From Fibrobacter sp. UWH4 (lineage in GTDB: Bacteria > Fibrobacterota > Fibrobacteria > Fibrobacterales > Fibrobacteraceae): DNA of 64,000 bases. Made by a program: the position numbers and the translations under genes. This document shows, one piece after another, positions 29,636 to 50,864 of this stretch. The notes under the pieces were generated by a model that made no database searches, was not told the origin of the DNA, and saw only the letters and a list, made by a program, of their open reading frames with translations. Position 1 is the stretch's first letter, and the number at the start of each line of letters is the position of its first letter. The stretch covers positions 496,001 through 560,000 of the forward strand of contig NZ_FRAY01000001.1 in NCBI RefSeq assembly GCF_900142475.1, read 5' to 3'.

Positions 29636-29677
29636 TGTCATTGCGAGCCTCCTGCAAGGAGGCGTGGCAATCTCGTG
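29636..29677. repeat. Copy of the GTCATTGCGAG dispersed repeat
   Basis: TGTCATTGCGAG followed by CCTCCTGCAAGGAGG (itself a hairpin) and GTGGCAATCTCG. It sits between the convergent ends of the outer-membrane gene and mutY, where it could form a terminator-like stem. Confidence 0.6.
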
Positions 29678-30736
29678 TTAAAGTAGCGCTAGAGCCTTTA
29701 GGCAGAAGCTGTTCGCAAAAAATTCTTGGGCTTCTTCTCGCTTGACCCACTGAATTTCATGCGCCGTTTTTGCAGAATTATTGCGAACGGGAGCCTTGCT
29801 TCTGAGCTGGATATGCAAAACGTCGCATTCCATTTTATGCACCGTGATGTTGTGCTTGAAGTTCCCGATGCATTGAACGCTTGTCACTAGGTCTGCGTTA
29901 AAGTAGGTTTCTGCCTGGGCGGGAATACCTGCGGTTGCGTTTCGCGGCGATTCAAAATGCGGCAGCGTGAACTGGTTCTTGAAGAATTTTTGTCCACCGT
30001 GGATTGCCAGAATCTTGTGGTCGCTGCTTTCGATGACGAGGACGGTTCCGTGCCAGTCCTTTTGAATGTGCTTTTTGCTGGGCGGAAATTCGGCGGTGCG
30101 ATTTTCAAGAGCCGCTCGGCAGACCTTTTGAAATGGGCAGCTTGCGCAATCGGGATTCTTGATTTTGCAGACTGTGCGGCCGAGTTCCATCAAAGCTTCG
30201 TTGTGCATGTAAGCCTTGGGCGAGTCGGCGATTTCGCGTGCGTAATCCCAGTAGGTTTTTAGGGCGTCCTTGGATTCCGTCGGCAAAAAAGCGAGCGCGT
30301 AAAGCCGCGAAAAAATGCGTACCAAGTTTCCGTCGAGAATCGCTTCTTGCTGGTGGTAGGCGAGGCTTAAAATCGCCCCTGCCGTGTATGCCCCGATACC
30401 GGGCAACGCTTCCAGTTCCTTGCGGGTCGTAGGCATGGTCGCCTTATTGTCATCCTGGAGCCGTAGGCGACGGGATCCATCCATTTTTTGCTGATTGATT
30501 ATCTTGGCCGTTTTCAGTATATTCCTTGCGCGGCTATAGTAGCCTAGCCCTTGCCAGTAGCGGAATACTTCACTTTCTTCGGCGGCGGCAAGCGTTTCTA
30601 TGTCGGGAAACCGCTCCATCCATCTTACGAAATAGTCGCGGACGGTAGAAACCTGCGTCTGCTGCAGCATAGTCTCGCTAATCCATACCGCATACGGATC
30701 GCGCGGCGCATCCAAATCGCTCAAGCGCCACGGCAA
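29678..30736 (-). CDS. mutY: A/G-specific adenine glycosylase MutY with repeat insertion and unusual start
   Basis: HhH-GPD glycosylase: VWISETMLQQTQVSTV with the catalytic Glu, EALPGIGAYTAGAILSLAY (helix-hairpin-helix), ILDGNLVRIFSRLY with the catalytic Asp, and a 4Fe-4S loop C-x6-C-x2-C-x5-C (CKIKNPDCASCPFQKVC). A C-terminal NUDIX-like domain follows. It removes A opposite 8-oxoG. The coordinates use TTG 30736, but conserved family sequence continues upstream in frame (LRNWFRKNAAD) with no ATG, GTG or TTG; the best start is ACG 30793, five bases from GAGGAG, inside a CATTGCGAG repeat. Residues 85-96 (MDGSRRLRLQDD) come from a GTCATCCTGGAG repeat and lengthen the loop by about 13 residues compared with E. 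coli MutY. Confidence 0.9.
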   Translation of the reverse strand: MPWRLSDLDAPRDPYAVWISETMLQQTQVSTVRDYFVRWMERFPDIETLAAAEESEVFRYWQGLGYYSRARNILKTAKIINQQKMDGSRRLRLQDDNKATMPTTRKELEALPGIGAYTAGAILSLAYHQQEAILDGNLVRIFSRLYALAFLPTESKDALKTYWDYAREIADSPKAYMHNEALMELGRTVCKIKNPDCASCPFQKVCRAALENRTAEFPPSKKHIQKDWHGTVLVIESSDHKILAIHGGQKFFKNQFTLPHFESPRNATAGIPAQAETYFNADLVTSVQCIGNFKHNITVHKMECDVLHIQLRSKAPVRNNSAKTAHEIQWVKREEAQEFFANSFCLKALALL

Positions 30737-30778
30737 ATCAGCGGCGTTCTTGCGGAACCAATTGCGGAGTTCTTTTAA

Positions 30779-30812
30779 GGATTGCTTCGTCGTGATACTC
30801 CTCGCAATGACG
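30779..30812 (-). repeat. CATTGCGAG repeat at the mutY start
   Basis: On the minus strand the copy reads GTCATTGCGAGGAGTATC then ACGACGAAGCAATCC. It has the same order as the copy at 34096-34128, with ACG here where that copy has the ATG start codon. Confidence 0.7.
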
Positions 30813-30847
30813 TTCTGAATTCTGAAATCCGAATTCAGAATTCAGGA
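30813..30847. repeat. GAATTC-rich intergenic repeat
   Basis: TTCTGAATTCTGAAATCC, GAATTCAGAATTCAGG: overlapping short palindromes centred on GAATTC. Similar strings occur at 34139-34182, 35190-35256 and inside rsmB. Confidence 0.5.
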
Positions 30848-32275
30848 TTAAATCCCGTACGCTTCTTTTTTCAGTTTCCTAAAGTATTCGAACTGGGCCT
30901 TGGTGGAAGATTCCATAGTGTACTTGAGGCTGCGTTCGTGGGCTGTCTCGCGCATCTTGGCGTAGGTGTCGGGTTCTTCAAGGTACAGCTTGCGGCATTC
31001 TTCCAGGGCGTTCAGCCAGGCGTCTTCGTCAATCGGCAAGATTCGGCCGGCGGCTTCGTCCATCACGATGTCGTGCGGTCCGCCGTAATCGCTGACGATA
31101 GCGGGCGTGCCGGTGGACATGGCTTCTACGACCACGTTCCCGAAGGTATCCGTTGTGCTTGGGAACAGGAAAAAGTCGGAATCGGCGTAAAGGCCTGCGA
31201 GTGTTTCGCCGCCCTGTTCGCCTGCAAAATGCACGCTGCTGTCGCCTTCGAAAAATTTCTTGATTTCTTCGAGGTACCAGCCGTAACCCACATACATAAG
31301 TTCTACGTCATCGTGCTTGGCTGCAAACTTTTTCCAGACGCCGTTCAAGAATTCCAGGTTCTTTTCCTTGGAAATGCGCCCGATGAACGAAAAACGAACC
31401 TTGCGCGCGCTGCTATCGCTGTACTTTTCCCAGGTACCCTTGCCGCGTAGGTTCTGCGAGAATTTTTCGAGCGGGAGTCCGCGGGGCAAAATTTGCACCT
31501 GGTTTTCGGGCACTTTTAGCTGCGAAGTCAGAATGTTCGCATAGTCCTTGCAGGGGCTGACCACGGGGCGTGTCATGCGGTAGAAAATCTTCATGAGCCA
31601 AAGCACAAAGTGGAACATCCACTTGGCTTTCACGAGCGTCTTGGTGTAAGTCGGAACGTCGGTGCGGTAGTGGCTGAATACCTTGATGCCTGCGACTTTC
31701 GCGCAGAAGCAGACAAGCCATGCGCCAGGACTCGGCGTCTCGAATTCAATCAAGTCGACGGGATAGCGCTTGAGCAGGCGAAGCACCGGACCCACGCGGG
31801 GTATTGCCAATTCACTGTTGGCGTAACCCAGCTGTTCCATGCTGAACATACGCGGAAGCAAAAGGCAGTAGCCGTTTTCCACGACGCCGCAGGGGCGCGT
31901 GTTGAAGGCGTTTCCGGCGAGGAAAGCATTCATACCGTGAGCCCGCATGTAGGGAATCACGTTTCTTAAGTTGTTTGCAATTCCGTTGGTTTCGTCCAGG
32001 TTGTCGGAATAAAAAAGAATGCGCACATCATCGGCAGGGTGTTGCTTGCGTTCTTTTTTCAAATAGAATCGCAACTTCAAGAGTTTCGGTAAATTAAGAA
32101 ACAGCGACCCGAATACGATCGGCGGAATCATGCCGGTGCGCAAATTTCCGGGGGGCTGGTGCTTGAAACCGAACATCTTTCGGAAGGTGCTCGTGACGGT
32201 GCGTCCAAAGATAGCCGGACGCGTATCTAAAACGTCGGTGGCTTTAAGCTTTGTTGAATTTGACGCAGTCGGCAT
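30848..32275 (-). CDS. Glycosyltransferase, GT4-like
   Basis: The 475-residue protein has a two-Rossmann GT-B layout. The N-terminal domain contains VRILFYSDNLDETNGIANNLRNVIPYMRAHG; the C-terminal domain contains VRFSFIGRISKEKNLEFL (donor-binding), DVELMYVGYGWYLEEIKKF, and FLFPSTTDTFGNVVVEAMSTGTPAI with the E-x7-E type motif. It probably builds a membrane glycolipid or surface polysaccharide (mannosyl- or glucosyl-transferase); the sugar is not predictable. ATG 32275 has AAAGGAG six bases upstream and lies inside the end of hisA (32-base overlap), so translation is probably coupled. Confidence 0.85.
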   Translation of the reverse strand: MPTASNSTKLKATDVLDTRPAIFGRTVTSTFRKMFGFKHQPPGNLRTGMIPPIVFGSLFLNLPKLLKLRFYLKKERKQHPADDVRILFYSDNLDETNGIANNLRNVIPYMRAHGMNAFLAGNAFNTRPCGVVENGYCLLLPRMFSMEQLGYANSELAIPRVGPVLRLLKRYPVDLIEFETPSPGAWLVCFCAKVAGIKVFSHYRTDVPTYTKTLVKAKWMFHFVLWLMKIFYRMTRPVVSPCKDYANILTSQLKVPENQVQILPRGLPLEKFSQNLRGKGTWEKYSDSSARKVRFSFIGRISKEKNLEFLNGVWKKFAAKHDDVELMYVGYGWYLEEIKKFFEGDSSVHFAGEQGGETLAGLYADSDFFLFPSTTDTFGNVVVEAMSTGTPAIVSDYGGPHDIVMDEAAGRILPIDEDAWLNALEECRKLYLEEPDTYAKMRETAHERSLKYTMESSTKAQFEYFRKLKKEAYGI

Positions 32276-33065
32276 ACTTCACTCCTTTGCCACCGAACAG
32301 GTCCAAGGCCGATCCGATGGTGAGATCAATCGTTCCGTTAGAAATTTGTTTGCAATGCTTGAGGTCTTCAAGCGACTTGGCGCCTCCCGCATACGTGCAA
32401 GGAATCGGGCTGTGCTCGGCGAGGAACATAATCAGTTCATCGTCCATGCCCTGCTGCTTTCCTTCGACATCGGCAGCGTGAATCAGGAATTCGTCGCAGT
32501 AACGCGAAAGGTCTTCGAGCGTTTCCTTGTTGATTTCGATGTCTATCAAAGTCTGCCAGCGGTTCGTGGCGATTTTCCAGCGGGGGCGTGCTTCGTCCGG
32601 ATCGTCGATTTCGTCGTCGGGGACAAATTGCTTTTTCTTCGCGGAACTCACGCGCTTGCAGCTCAAGTCAAGCACCAGGTGCTCCTTGCCGACCGTCTTG
32701 GAAAGCAATTCCAGTCGCTCACGGTCGAGCTTGCCTTCAGGGAAAATCCAGCTTGTCACGATTACATGAGATGCGCCTGCATCCAGATATTCTTTCGCGT
32801 TCTCGGCAGTGATGCCGCCGCCGACTTGCAGTCCGCCGGGATAGGCGGCGAGCGCTTTTTTCGCGGCTTCGGTGTTGCCCTTGCCGAGCATAATCACGTG
32901 GCCGCCCCTGATTCCGTCTTTCTTGTAGAGCTCCGCAAACCAAGCGGGGGAACGGTCCGTTTCGAAATTCGTCTTGAGGCCAGCTCCGCTGTCATTCAGC
33001 GAACTGCCTACAATCTGCTTTACACGTCCGTCGTGCAGGTCGATGCAGGGGCGAAACTTTGTCAT
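32244..33065 (-). CDS. hisA: Eukaryotic-type HisA (ProFAR isomerase, HIS6-like)
   Basis: The 273-residue TIM-barrel protein resembles yeast His6 rather than ordinary bacterial HisA: MTKFRPCIDLHDGRVKQIVG, GHVIMLGKGN, LQVGGGITAENAKEYLDAGASHVIVTSW, LVLDLSCK, NRWQTLIDIEINKETLEDL, EFLIHAADVEGKQQGMD, TYAGGAKSLEDL and DLTIGSALDLFGG. It isomerises ProFAR in histidine synthesis. An acidic insertion (FVPDDEIDDPDEARPRW) lies near residue 150. ATG 33065 overlaps the stop of the upstream gene by one base and the glycosyltransferase starts inside its end. Eukaryote-type hisA genes are known in some bacteria, so this is not proof of recent transfer. Confidence 0.9.
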   Translation of the reverse strand: MTKFRPCIDLHDGRVKQIVGSSLNDSGAGLKTNFETDRSPAWFAELYKKDGIRGGHVIMLGKGNTEAAKKALAAYPGGLQVGGGITAENAKEYLDAGASHVIVTSWIFPEGKLDRERLELLSKTVGKEHLVLDLSCKRVSSAKKKQFVPDDEIDDPDEARPRWKIATNRWQTLIDIEINKETLEDLSRYCDEFLIHAADVEGKQQGMDDELIMFLAEHSPIPCTYAGGAKSLEDLKHCKQISNGTIDLTIGSALDLFGGKGVKYADCVKFNKA

Positions 33066-34108
33066 TAGTCTTTAACTCCGGTAATGCACCAGTCCAGTTT
33101 TTTTCCGTGGCTTGCGTCGCTACGACCCCTGTAAAAGAGGACTTCGCCGCCGGCTGCAATCTGGAAGGCCTTCTTGGCGAACCAGCCGTCTACCTTGTCC
33201 AATAGGCTAGCTTTCTGGAGCGTCTTTGCCACGCTGAACTTGAGTGCAGGAATAGAGGCGTCTTGCCATTCGAAGGTCAAGTCGCCTTTTGCAAATTTCT
33301 TGCCGTTGTAGTTGTCGCTACCTTCCTTGATGGCCTTGGGGGTTGCGACTTTCATTCCGGATTCGTCCTTGTATAGCGCGTATCCGAACGGTTCGCCACT
33401 TTTGGAAATTGAGACTCGTCCTGCAAATAGCGGGCTGCGGGCGCTGGTGCTGAAGTTGACCGAACGTGCGGCCATATCGGTGGCCTGCTCGGTTTGCCAG
33501 GTCTGATCCATGTAGGCGTAGCCCTTTACGGCGATGGTGTCTTCGTTGTAGGCAATTTTGCCTTTTACGCGTCCGTAAGGAATGTGCACGTATTGTCCGA
33601 ATGTTTCCTTGCCGATTTTCCACACGCCGTTACCGGGAACTTTCCCGACTTCGGCAGATTCGAAAGTCACGTCGACCAGGAATTTGCCTCCCTTGTCGGC
33701 AGAAAAGAACACGCGGTGATCTTTGCCCGGCTTGTGCTCCATCGCATATTCGCCGTTGATGTCGATGCTTGCCGTGGCCTTGTTTGCCTTCAGGCGTTCC
33801 GGCGGATACTGGCGGCCAACCGTGTACGTTTTGCTCTTGAAGTTCCAAAAGCTCATGTCGCAGGTGACCTTTTTACCGGCGCCAGGAATATGGAGCGTAG
33901 AATAGTTGATAAAGGCGCGAGTGCCGTTGTCGAAAACGAACTGGTAACTCCAGGTCTCGTTGAATTCCTTGACGCTGCTCTGGTGCGGCATAAAGTCGTC
34001 GACAGAAACGTTACGCACGGAACCCTGCGGCGCCACCACATCGCCTGCAAAAGCAAACGATGTACAGAGTGTTGCCATAATCGCTATCAGTATAGATTGC
34101 TTTGTCAT
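33065..34108 (-). CDS. Secreted lipocalin-like (CrtC/Svf1-type) protein
   Basis: A signal peptide (MTKQSILIAIMATLCTSFAFA, cleavage near residue 21) is followed by a beta-rich protein with DMSFWNFKSKTYTVGRQYPPE, GRVKGKIAYNEDTIAVKGYAYMDQTWQTE and RSPLFAGRVSISKSGEPFGYALYKDESG. The order and the Y-x-D-Q-x-W-type motif recall the double lipocalin fold of hydroxyneurosporene synthase (CrtC) and yeast Svf1, but similarity is low and the ligand is unknown. ATG 34108 has GAGGAACGAAC upstream. Ribosome binding site, start codon and signal peptide all lie in a copy of the CATTGCGAG..AAGCAATC repeat (34096-34128), and the codons after it still match the repeat. It is co-transcribed with hisA (one-base overlap). 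Confidence 0.6.
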   Translation of the reverse strand: MTKQSILIAIMATLCTSFAFAGDVVAPQGSVRNVSVDDFMPHQSSVKEFNETWSYQFVFDNGTRAFINYSTLHIPGAGKKVTCDMSFWNFKSKTYTVGRQYPPERLKANKATASIDINGEYAMEHKPGKDHRVFFSADKGGKFLVDVTFESAEVGKVPGNGVWKIGKETFGQYVHIPYGRVKGKIAYNEDTIAVKGYAYMDQTWQTEQATDMAARSVNFSTSARSPLFAGRVSISKSGEPFGYALYKDESGMKVATPKAIKEGSDNYNGKKFAKGDLTFEWQDASIPALKFSVAKTLQKASLLDKVDGWFAKKAFQIAAGGEVLFYRGRSDASHGKKLDWCITGVKD

Positions 34109-34128
34109 GTTCGTTCCTCGCAATGACA
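34096..34128 (-). repeat. CATTGCGAG repeat supplying a translation start
   Basis: On the minus strand: GTCATTGCGAGGAACGAAC, then ATGACAAAGCAATCTATACT. The similarity to the copies at 47984 and 49690 continues downstream into the signal-peptide codons (ATACT..T.GC.AT). Confidence 0.65.
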
Positions 34129-34138
34129 ATTCATTTTT

Positions 34139-34182
34139 TCATATTCTATTCCGAACTCTGAATTCCGAAATCCGAATTAGAG
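34139..34182. repeat. GAATTC-rich intergenic repeat
   Basis: TATTCCGAACTCTGAATTCC then GAAATCCGAATTAGAG. It resembles the copies at 30813 and 35190 and touches the last codons of the Rmd-like gene. Confidence 0.5.
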
Positions 34183-35189: not shown

Positions 35190-35256
35190 AATTAGAAATA
35201 AAGAATCAGAATTGCAAAATCATTCTGAAATCCGAATTCCTAATTCCGAATTCATT
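35190..35256. repeat. GAATTC-rich intergenic repeat
   Basis: AGAATCAGAATTGCAAAATC, then CATTCTGAAATCCGAATTCC and TAATTCCGAATTCATTT. It fills most of the 91-base gap between aroKB and the Rmd-like gene. Confidence 0.5.
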
Positions 35257-41113: not shown

Positions 41114-41186
41114 AGCCACCCAGCAGATTTGAACTGCCGACCTGCTGATTACGAATCAGCTGCTCTACCAGCTGAGCTAGAGTGGC
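41114..41186 (-). tRNA. tRNA-Thr (anticodon CGT)
   Basis: The 73-base minus-strand cloverleaf has acceptor GCCACTC/GGGTGGC, D-arm with AGCTCAGCTGGTAGAGC, anticodon stem GCTGA/TCAGC around loop TTCGTAA (anticodon CGT, reading ACG), and T-arm GGTTCAA-type loop (GCAGTTCAAATCTGC). CCA is not encoded. The discriminator is T. Confidence 0.95.
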
Positions 41187-47983: not shown

Positions 47984-48045
47984 GTCATTGCGAGCCCTGT
48001 AAGGGCGAAGCAATCCATACTTCTTGCCATGGCTCTTGTCTTCTA
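47984..48045 (+). repeat. CATTGCGAG repeat with signal-peptide-like 3' half
   Basis: GTCATTGCGAGCCCTGTAAG, GGCGAAGC, then AATCCATACTTCTTGCC and ATGGCTCTTGTCTT. The last 31 bases (48012-48042) are identical to 49690-49720, where they encode the hydrophobic core of a lipoprotein signal peptide (SILLAMALVF). Here no gene follows in frame. Confidence 0.7.
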
Positions 48046-48048
48046 TAG

Positions 48049-48225
48049 GGGGGAGGGTTTAAAGAGTTGGACAAGGTTGCATATTGGTTTTATCCAATAG
48101 AAAATTCCTATGCTGAGTACGCTTCTGCTGATGATGGGTATACAAGTTATTCGGATAAAGTTATGCATACGAATGTATCGCATAAAGAGAATGGTCTTTC
48201 AGTCCGCTGTGTAATGGTTGAATAA
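48049..48225 (+). pseudogene. Decayed FISUMP-domain gene (C-terminal fragment)
   Basis: The frame encodes KVAYWFYPIENSYAEYAS and then HKENGLSVRCVMVE before TAA at 48223, which is the typical end of a FISUMP domain (compare AAFSIRCVKDY in the intact gene ending at 50864). The upstream part of the domain is missing and the signal-peptide-like sequence at 48012-48045 is in another frame. It appears to be an internally deleted, frameshifted paralogue of the intact lipoprotein gene at 49632. Confidence 0.65.
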
Positions 48226-48513: not shown

Positions 48514-49413
48514 ATGAGTGCAAAACGCATTCCTTTTGAACAGCTCCCCATTACGAACAGGTTCATGTTTGCAATGGTGTTTGGCCACAAGGAAATTGCA
48601 AAGCCGTTCCTTGAGGCTGTGCTTGGCATTAGGATTCACGAGCTCAAGGATCCCGAGCCCGAAAAGACTATTGACGTAAGCCCGTTCTACAAGGGTATCC
48701 GCTACGATGTCTTTGTAAAGGAAACAGGCCCAGACGGAGAAGTCCTCCGCAGTTTCGACATTGAGATGCAGATGGAAGATAACGTGGACATCCCCAAGCG
48801 GACCCGTTACTATCAGGCTATGTGCGACAGCGAGGCGCTGAACAAGGGCGAGGTTTACTATAAGCTGAATGATCTTTACATTATGTTTCTGTGTCCCGAG
48901 GACATTTTCGGGCAGGGAAAAGCCGTCTATAGGTTCAAGAATCTCGAAGTCGACAACCCGAAAATTGAATTGGGGGACCTCTGCTACAAAAATTTTTATA
49001 TATTCAATAAGTACCGCGACGTCGCCGAGAAATCTATCAGGGAGTATCTGGAGTACTTCGCGACAAGGAATCCGAGTTCTCCAGAAACCAAGAAGATTGA
49101 CAGGATGGTGAAGTGGTACCAGACGGACAACGAAACGAGGAAACGCTATATGACTTGGCAACAGGAAATCGACATCGCTGTAGACCATGAACGCCAGCGT
49201 GCAAATGATGCGGAAAAGCGCTTTTATGAGGCGAAGGACCGTGCAAACAAAGCTGAAGCTCGTGCCGATGAAGCAGAAGCTCGTGCTAATGAAGCGAAGG
49301 GCCGTGCTGACGAGGCAGAAGCCCGTGCTGACGAAGTTGAGCGCCTTGCGAATGCGGAAAAGGCTCGTGCTGACAAGTACGAGAAAATGCTTCGCGAACT
49401 CGGCAAGTTGTAA
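48514..49413 (+). CDS. Rpn/PD-(D/E)XK nuclease-family protein with coiled-coil tail
   Basis: The 299-residue protein starts FEQLPITNRFMFAMVFGHKEIAKPFLEAVLG (family N-terminus with the ND/NR-x-x-F pattern), then YDVFVKETGPDGEVLRSFDIEMQ with the D...E-x-Q core, RTRYYQAMCDSEALNKG and YIMFLCPEDIFGQG. This places it with the Rpn-like transposases/nucleases. Residues 228-290 are a regular coiled coil of seven-residue A-(D/N)-E-A-x-x-R units. The shared promoter element links it to the gene at 37907. The tail length probably varies between copies by repeat slippage. ATG 48514 gives the family N-terminus directly. Confidence 0.88.
   Translation: MSAKRIPFEQLPITNRFMFAMVFGHKEIAKPFLEAVLGIRIHELKDPEPEKTIDVSPFYKGIRYDVFVKETGPDGEVLRSFDIEMQMEDNVDIPKRTRYYQAMCDSEALNKGEVYYKLNDLYIMFLCPEDIFGQGKAVYRFKNLEVDNPKIELGDLCYKNFYIFNKYRDVAEKSIREYLEYFATRNPSSPETKKIDRMVKWYQTDNETRKRYMTWQQEIDIAVDHERQRANDAEKRFYEAKDRANKAEARADEAEARANEAKGRADEAEARADEVERLANAEKARADKYEKMLRELGKL
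49243..49345 (+). repeat. Tandem 21-base coding repeats (coiled-coil heptads)
   Basis: Imperfect direct units such as AAAGCTGAAGCTCGTGCCGA and GAGGCAGAAGCCCGTGCTGA encode the A-D-E-A-E-A-R heptads of the Rpn-family protein. Similar codons at each position suggest expansion by slippage. Confidence 0.7.
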
Positions 49414-49631: not shown

Positions 49632-50864
49632 GTGAAGATTTTTACATTGCGTCATTCTTGGCCTGTCATTCTCGAAGCGAAGCGTAGGGAATCCATACTT
49701 CTTGCCATGGCTCTTGTCTTTGCTGTATTTACTGCGTGCGACAGCGGTTCCAGCAGTACTGACCCTGACCCGATTGCGGAAGTTTCGAGCAGTAGCGATG
49801 ATATCCGCCAGTGCGAGGAACAGAGCGATGACTGCGACGATACCAGCTCTAGTAGCGGTGAAGTCTCTAAGAATTCTTCGAGTTCGCAAAAGATCGCCGA
49901 TAAGGACAAGTCTTCTTCCTCGATTGAAGAGAAATCCTCTAGTTCTGTAAGTGGCAAGAATAGTAGTTCGTCTGTAGCAGAGTCGAGTAGTAGTGATTCT
50001 GTTAAAACTTGTACGCCTGATCAAGAAGGTTTGGAACAATGGTATTTTTTTACTAAGGAAACTTATGTTTGTCAGAATGGTGTATGGGTTCTCCAATCAT
50101 CAAGTAGCGTTGTTGAAGAGTCCTCTAGTAGCAAATATTATGACATGAGCAGACAGTTTAATGCCAAACTCAGCTATGGTGAATTTACTGATCCGCGCGA
50201 TAATCATGTATACAAAACGATTCGTCTGTATGACGATGTTACTGATACACTCACGTTTTTTGCGGAAAATCTGAATTTTGGTAAGATGATTTCTGGTGGA
50301 AATCAACAAGGTGATTCGACCAAATATTGTTATGATGACGATCCTTGGTATTGTGAAAATGGATGGGGTGGGCTTTATACCTGGGCTACCGCTATGGCTT
50401 TCCCCGCTGTTTGTGATTCTTCTCAAATGGGAAGTGATAAATGCCCGAATACGACGGATGAGTCTAGGAATACTCTTGTACCAAATAATTCGGAGTATGT
50501 TGTCCACCGGGGAATTTGCCCGGAAGGCTGGCATATTATGAATCGTGGTGAATGGGTGGCTGCTATTAATGGGCATGGGGCGATGAATGGTAGTCAATAT
50601 CTTAGTTCGGAGGTTTGGAATGGAATCATGAAAAATCCGAGAGGTTTTTCTCTTTTGCCGGCAGGTTTGTATGATGAATACGGCGAATTTTCTCAAATTA
50701 TGAAACAAGCTTTTCATTGGGTTCCTGGTGAGTCGTTCGATGAAAAAGCGAACTTGTATAAAGGCTTATTTGTTCGTGCAACAGATTTGGATTTGCAGCG
50801 AGATTCTAAAAATAGATTTATTAAAACAGCTGCGTTCTCTATTCGTTGCGTAAAGGATTATTGA
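49632..50864 (+). CDS. FISUMP-domain lipoprotein with poly-Ser linkers
   Basis: The 410-residue protein has a lipoprotein signal ending LVFAVFTAC (Cys36), Ser-rich linkers at about 38-175 (SSSGEVSKNSSSSQ, KSSSSIEEKSSSSVS), and a C-terminal FISUMP domain: NHVYKTIRLYDD, LTFFAENLNFGKM, YCENGWGGLYTWATAMAF, GICPEGWHIMNRGEWVAAI, GFSLLPAGLYDEYGEF and AFSIRCVKDY. The FISUMP domain is a paralogous domain described from Fibrobacter succinogenes; its function is unknown. GTG 49632 was chosen because GGAGG (49621-49625) is six bases upstream. The signal peptide is encoded by repeat DNA shared with 47984-48045. The gene lies 69 bases upstream of the giant RTX gene and may be co-transcribed with it. Confidence 0.9.
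   Translation: MKIFTLRHSWPVILEAKRRESILLAMALVFAVFTACDSGSSSTDPDPIAEVSSSSDDIRQCEEQSDDCDDTSSSSGEVSKNSSSSQKIADKDKSSSSIEEKSSSSVSGKNSSSSVAESSSSDSVKTCTPDQEGLEQWYFFTKETYVCQNGVWVLQSSSSVVEESSSSKYYDMSRQFNAKLSYGEFTDPRDNHVYKTIRLYDDVTDTLTFFAENLNFGKMISGGNQQGDSTKYCYDDDPWYCENGWGGLYTWATAMAFPAVCDSSQMGSDKCPNTTDESRNTLVPNNSEYVVHRGICPEGWHIMNRGEWVAAINGHGAMNGSQYLSSEVWNGIMKNPRGFSLLPAGLYDEYGEFSQIMKQAFHWVPGESFDEKANLYKGLFVRATDLDLQRDSKNRFIKTAAFSIRCVKDY

Follow-up and report, generated by a model that had tools for sequence, protein, structure and literature searches.

How did a short palindromic repeat come to lie across the start of a gene for an exported protein, and how much of that start and of the export signal behind it does the repeat supply? 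The question arises in a 64-kb window (the whole stretch of DNA analysed, C1 496001-560000 of the 3.70-Mb genome G000, whose FISUMP-domain proteins point to Fibrobacter), where a repeat copy does overlap the first codons of a lipocalin-like gene, as the original prediction had stated. The features of this locus, in window coordinates, are:

34095-34128, minus strand: REP copy (TGTC tag plus hairpin) overlapping the start of the lipocalin-like gene; sequence TGTCATTGCGAGGAACGAACATGACAAAGCAATC.
34115-34119, minus strand: GAGGA, a Shine-Dalgarno-like (SD) sequence belonging to a REP subtype, 6 nt upstream of the ATG.
34106-34108, minus strand: ATG within the repeat (GTG in G003), the probable start codon from frame, SD and homology.
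34046-34108, minus strand: predicted signal peptide MTKQSILIAIMATLCTSFAFA with a putative cleavage site; by alignment with repeat-free orthologues MTKQS(I) is repeat-derived and the rest host gene.
33065-34108, minus strand: predicted exported CrtC/AttH lipocalin-like protein of 347 aa.

The label "lipocalin-like" is weakly backed by Pfam CrtC (E=0.026, 15.6 bits, under the cutoff of 22.5) and PDB AttH 2ich (E=0.34); the protein itself has a match in 31 of the 31 genomes searched. Here and throughout, we infer repeat-derived starts from frame, SD and homology.

The repeat is a hairpin of about 36 nt, YGTC-ATTGCGAG-(variable stem)-GAAGCAAT-CY, or in full YGTC-ATTGC-GAG-(variable stem-loop)-GA-AGCAAT-CY, and a pattern search found 52 exact copies of it in G000. 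Because CATTGCGAG-N4-34-AGCAATC matched 52 times when read forward and 0 times in the reversed-pattern control, we regard it as a dispersed element and not a chance match. The 20 congeneric genomes searched hold 0-33 copies each (reversed-pattern control ≤1), and within the window GTCATTGCGAG with at most one mismatch was matched five times, four of them exactly, against 1.4 expected, with 4 of 100 shuffles reaching five. The surrounding sequence was taken for 265 copies, found by exact pattern, from 14 congeneric genomes, several of which are drafts. Of these copies 152 carry CGTC as the four-base tag and 110 carry TGTC; GCAAT is followed by C, C/T and A/C in that order and mostly by T after them, which is near CCA but often CTA/CTC. 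A 5-bp outer stem is followed by an internal mismatch (GAG/GA) and a variable inner stem of about 2-6 bp. In 49 distinct equal-length copies 99.6% of outer-stem cells are paired, while the inner stem has 57 double-change (compensatory) cells versus 16.9 in shuffles (0 of 500 as high) and a covariation score of 0.249 versus 0.084 shuffled, which was lost when the stem partners were slid.

In its sequence features the repeat matches the CGTC-tagged REPs and would thus be a small non-autonomous palindromic element, which we place near, not inside, families CGTC-1 to CGTC-4 because its stem and loop lengths differ from the published ones. A RAYT-driven or GTAG REP was rejected, the tag being YGTC and the search of G000 for the Y1_Tnp/RAYT transposase (PF01797) giving no match, with positive controls in 5 of 14 genomes. 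At the gathering threshold, Rfam returned only a tRNA at 41114-41186 in the 64-kb window and no family for the repeat. Exact matches to the motif were also found in Alphaproteobacteria, Chloroflexi, Bacteroidetes, Omnitrophica, Spirochaetes, Melainabacteria and others.

Further copies had been predicted at 29636, 30779, 47984 and 49664. The first three proved to be members of the family, but the fourth belongs to a second one:

29637-29672, plus strand: intergenic REP copy (GTGGCAATC variant), from pattern search and sequence.
30780-30811, minus strand: REP copy over the expected mutY start, with no ATG/GTG/TTG left in frame ahead of TTG 30715.
47984-48015, plus strand: REP copy in the n-region of a broken FISUMP-lipoprotein paralogue, from pattern and sequence.
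49665-49693, plus strand: copy of a second, related palindromic family (GTCATTCTCGA..GGGAATC) encoding VILEAKRRES in the n-region of a predicted FISUMP lipoprotein signal peptide.
49632-50864, plus strand: FISUMP-domain lipoprotein with a GTG start behind GGAGG, MKIFTLRHSWPVILEAKRRESILLAMALVFAVFTAC (Pfam Fib_succ_major 54.3 bits; TIGR02145 89.1 bits; start common to paralogues).

In mutY (29678-30811, minus strand) the stretch from the upstream stop to TTG 30715 holds only ATT/ATC/CTG in frame, with ATC 30796 lying behind the GAGG of the repeat. The N-termini in relatives read MDKAILKYLRDWF (G003) and MDTQSLKILRDWF (G010), and an AUC start or an N-terminal truncation of MutY in G000 is possible. 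A degenerate tandem repeat of the GAATTCGGAATTC type occupies short intergenic gaps adjoining these genes (30819-30849, 34148-34178 and 35222-35252).

Did the lipocalin-like gene gain its start from the repeat? In the sister species G003 the same repeat lies in the same place, a few bases past the upstream stop codon, in the consensus form GAGGAACGATAGTGACGAAGCAATC with a GTG start, giving V(M)TKQSILIAIMTALCASLAFAG; the start codon within the repeat differs between the two carriers, ATG in G000 and GTG in G003. The orthologues in G010 and G005 are 86-87% identical proteins without the repeat, each with its own start and signal peptide (MKVLVSILAFLFCASFAFAG in G010; MRRENMIVLFVAFLFSTSLAFAG in G005, at the first Met). 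Because these orthologues are repeat-free and start differently, the G000/G003 lineage most likely had its start region replaced by the repeat; that G010 and G005 instead lost the repeat is the less likely history. Hence the part of the original prediction by which the repeat provides the GAGGA, the ATG and the codons for TKQS(I) stands, but the hydrophobic core, which it had also assigned to the repeat, differs from gene to gene and is host-gene sequence.

The same distinction applies to the FISUMP lipoproteins, where SILLAMALVF, shared at 48012 and 49690, had been taken as repeat-encoded. A search for the 22-nt core of this 31-nt identity gave five exact matches and none with 1-3 mismatches. 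FISUMP-lipoprotein paralogues sharing the start GGAGGTCTTCTGTGAAGATTTTTACA account for four of these matches (a single base is changed in one paralogue, and another has a later stop), and the broken paralogue, at 48012, accounts for the fifth. A repeat-free paralogue (L041) reads MKIFKSVLALSVLLTMLVAC, and the others carry one or two palindromic repeats, of the CATTGCGAG or the GTCATTCTCGA..GGGAATC type, between MKIFT and the hydrophobic core. It follows from L041 and the comparison of paralogues that the core belongs to the family and that the repeats were inserted into the n-region. MALVF thus derives from the gene family and not the repeat, and a repeat-encoded KQSILLAMALVF was rejected in favor of FISUMP paralogy. 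The broken paralogue (47984-48225) consists of repeat and signal peptide fused to a C-terminal remnant ending SVRCVMVE, and a gene for a PDDEXK_2/Rpn-family recombination-promoting nuclease (48514-49413) sits between the two FISUMP paralogues.

Could ordinary paralogy, or a chance likeness of signal peptides, then account for the repeat at gene starts as well? It holds for the 31-nt identity. For the lipocalin-like copy it is refuted by the repeat-free genes of G010 and G005, and as a general account we give it almost no credence, given 14 unrelated gene families, 52 copies against none in the reversed control, and close orthologues without the repeat.

Where, then, do the copies lie? Among the 265, 155 are intergenic, 96 within genes, nine over a same-strand start and five over a stop, as judged with gene calls from a home-made codon model trained on the window. 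Copies inside ORFs or overlapping starts number 79 on the same strand and 26 on the opposite strand, and some are in frame inside conserved ORFs. If N-terminal copies are defined as those within 75 nt of a gene start, and the expectation is taken from gene lengths, there are 25 on the same strand versus 5.9 expected, an excess of about four-fold, and two on the opposite strand versus 2.1. After homologues were clustered the excess was 14 same-strand families versus 3.13 expected (0 of 500,000 simulations as high), with two versus 1.73 for the opposite strand. A signal peptide, called by a simple rule (positive n-region, hydrophobic core, AXA or lipobox), stands right behind the repeat in 13 of the 14 N-terminal families, as against 153 of 471 background genes (32%; P about 6e-6) and 5 of 27 families with internal insertions (P about 6e-6). 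The 3' end is read in the K-Q-S frame in 21 of 25 N-terminal copies versus 26 of 49 internal ones. Genome-wide, the copies therefore do not avoid gene starts, and those at starts are nearly all in signal-peptide genes.

Outside genes there is a strand bias too: between codirectional genes 86 intergenic copies have the orientation of the genes and 25 the opposite one (P 5e-9), often 3-13 nt past the upstream stop. The arrangement GAGG-N-[AG]TGACGAAGCAATC, a built-in SD and start with a lysine-bearing lead in the same frame, was found in 28 copies; the gene calls place a start in eight of them, and homology adds a ninth (L309, VanX-like). Starts without a cleavable signal peptide also occur. An exception is a TrmB-like methyltransferase (L230, G000 C5:380609), whose only apparent start is the GTG inside the repeat, a cytosolic start capture, and an EcfT-like membrane protein (L272) is probably another. 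Copies in frame within genes (L015, L018, L264, L269, L289 and similar) are often in Ser-rich lipoprotein linkers or in linkers of larger proteins, and some genes with internal repeats have two copies in opposite orientations. A bias general across bacteria was rejected: in 245 copies from other phyla, a Bradyrhizobium-heavy sample judged by a cruder ORF test, a signal-peptide core stood behind only three same-strand and three opposite-strand candidates, none convincing.

Orthologues differ in whether they carry the repeat. In the ExbB-like gene the G000 n-region carries the CATTGCGAG repeat (MYKHVIASVAKQSRTALFATVLFLSASSAFA), G010, G001 and G004 carry other, unrelated palindromic repeats in the same n-region (GTCATCCTGAGCG..GTCGAAGGATC or GTCATTCTGAGCG..TCGAATAATC), and G003, G005 and G006 carry none. 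The GTCATCCTGAGCG-type family has 29 copies in G000, two of them N-terminal and both in signal peptides. In the porin-like gene, G006 and G001 still have the native SD and ATG but carry an insertion when compared with G004 (AAGGAGGATTAAAATGTTTAAAAAATTAAG), whereas in G031 the ATG is within the repeat and in G012 only the 3' half of the repeat is left, supplying a GTG. The VanX-like gene starts at the GTG inside the repeat in G001, G004 and G006; G000 has a separate copy with the stem altered on both sides (CATCGCGAG..GAAGCGATC), and G003, G005 and G010 have no repeat. Repeat-free orthologues thus have a different start and n-region. Given this and the N-terminal excess, we conclude that the repeat is a source of start codons and of the charged first part of export signals.

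Alternatively, the repeat might not be translated at all but act in the 5' leader as a non-coding RNA hairpin, controlling translation from a true start further downstream, an idea that Di Nocera et al. offered for many NH2-terminal REPs elsewhere. The compensatory inner stem, a hairpin able to pair the start codon and the co-orientation of copies between codirectional genes are what such a hairpin would be expected to show. However, genes that start within the repeat have no credible downstream start ahead of the hydrophobic core, those of the insertion class have their native SD and start, conserved in repeat-free orthologues, on the upstream side of the repeat, and the reading frame is kept in all N-terminal cases, and we therefore hold this explanation to be very doubtful. 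A regulatory hairpin at the start codon is nevertheless possible from the sequence; coupling of tag and GACR (CGTC/GACG against TGTC/GACA) would be a sign of one, and of only four GACA copies three have TGTC and one CGTC.

Is the repeat, then, a portable start-plus-export module, kept and selected for its translation start and export-competent n-region and tuning the secretion of envelope proteins? The strong excess of N-terminal and signal-peptide copies is in line with this, as are the built-in SD-start subtype, at least nine of whose 28 copies appear to serve as gene starts, the repeated and independent capture of repeats by the same genes, and the change from GTG to ATG in the G000 lipocalin-like gene together with the ATG of the G031 porin-like gene. 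Against it, 155 of the 265 copies are intergenic and most of the gene families are without the repeat in most species, the hydrophobic core is never repeat sequence and different repeat families do the same, and the bias is absent from the 245 copies of other phyla. We consider such a module rather unlikely. A start codon and a charged n-region are supplied, as was proposed, but the repeat does not carry the export signal itself, and the data are accounted for no less well by tolerance of insertion into an n-region under loose constraint, with exaptation afterwards, than by a purpose-built module.

We think it quite probable, then, that these CGTC-tagged REPs inserted recurrently, were tolerated and were then exapted at signal-peptide n-regions. 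A non-autonomous palindromic element would spread mostly into intergenic gaps, mostly co-oriented with transcription, and within genes would survive best in signal-peptide n-regions, whose length and sequence are under little constraint beyond the need for a positive charge; because little beyond net charge matters there, insertion or replacement would be easily tolerated. Read on the same strand in one frame, the 3' half would give (V/A)-(T)-K-Q-S, a lysine-containing lead that could be joined to any hydrophobic core, and the strand bias could arise because a copy read on the opposite strand often encodes an acidic residue (..ARND). Two outcomes are seen in the sequences: 1. the gene retains its native SD and start and has its n-region lengthened by the repeat, as in the FISUMP lipoproteins and the ExbB-like and porin-like genes, or 2. 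the subtype GAGGA-N5-7-[G/A]TGACGAAGCAATC brings its own SD and start in frame with TKQS, so that the repeat becomes the start and the old one is lost, as in the lipocalin-like gene, the VanX-like gene and an 843-codon gene (L352). Active selection could contribute to the N-terminal enrichment alongside tolerance. The bolder proposal that the subtype GAGGA-N5-7-RTG-ACG-AAG-CAA-TCN is a mobile cassette of translation start and n-region, positively selected in Fibrobacter and rewiring the expression and export of envelope proteins, seems to us unlikely.

Small palindromic repeats are usually regarded as extragenic or selfish. Here, in fibre-degrading bacteria, a selfish-looking hairpin scattered through the genome appears to have repeatedly turned into a ribosome site, a start codon and the n-region of an export signal, a recruitment of junk-like DNA into working genes. 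With the same frame in many gene families, and repeat-free orthologues at hand, the origin of new translation starts from repeats becomes testable, as does the notion that signal-peptide n-regions are landing zones through which mobile DNA enters coding sequence. A practical consequence is that automatic annotation will misplace the starts of repeat-carrying genes.

How does this compare with known systems? A literature search for the repeat motif itself gave only unrelated papers among the matches listed, and in the literature searched, with many subscription papers outside its scope, we found no report of a recurrent signal-peptide-specific REP bias. To our knowledge, the palindromic elements of Rickettsia (RPEs) are described as spread along ORFs, with no bias to signal-peptide n-regions. 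They are alike in being palindromic repeats inserted in frame in conserved protein genes (Ogata et al., 2000, as cited in PMC2229807). The CGTC-tagged REPs, including Rickettsia RPE-4 and RPE-6, occur in species of five phyla (Di Nocera, De Gregorio and Rocco, 2013, PMC3733652, in which the word Fibrobacter is absent). Like the Fibrobacter repeat they are hairpins of 20-40 nt with a CGTC/TGTC tag on one side, A-T at the base of the stem and no dedicated transposase known, and they lie mostly near the 3' ends of upstream genes, with some intragenic and NH2-terminal copies noted (PMC3733652). Their short unpaired tail has the consensus CCA. CGTC-1 to CGTC-4 have stems of 8-9 bp and loops of 4-5, whereas the 5-bp outer stem and more variable inner stem set the Fibrobacter repeat apart at the level of the family. 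NH2-terminal copies were mostly discounted as mis-annotated starts in PMC3733652, whereas those described here are in frame and specific to signal peptides, and repeat-free orthologues support them. A further likeness is with the Yersinia RU-2/YPAL repeat at YPO1552 (Delihas, 2007, PMC2229807), in which part of the signal peptide of a putative exported protein comes from a small mobile repeat; that case, however, is a single locus with a 168-bp element whose own hydrophobic translation contributes, while the Fibrobacter repeat, of about 36 nt, appears to provide the start and n-region, recurrently, in 13 gene families.
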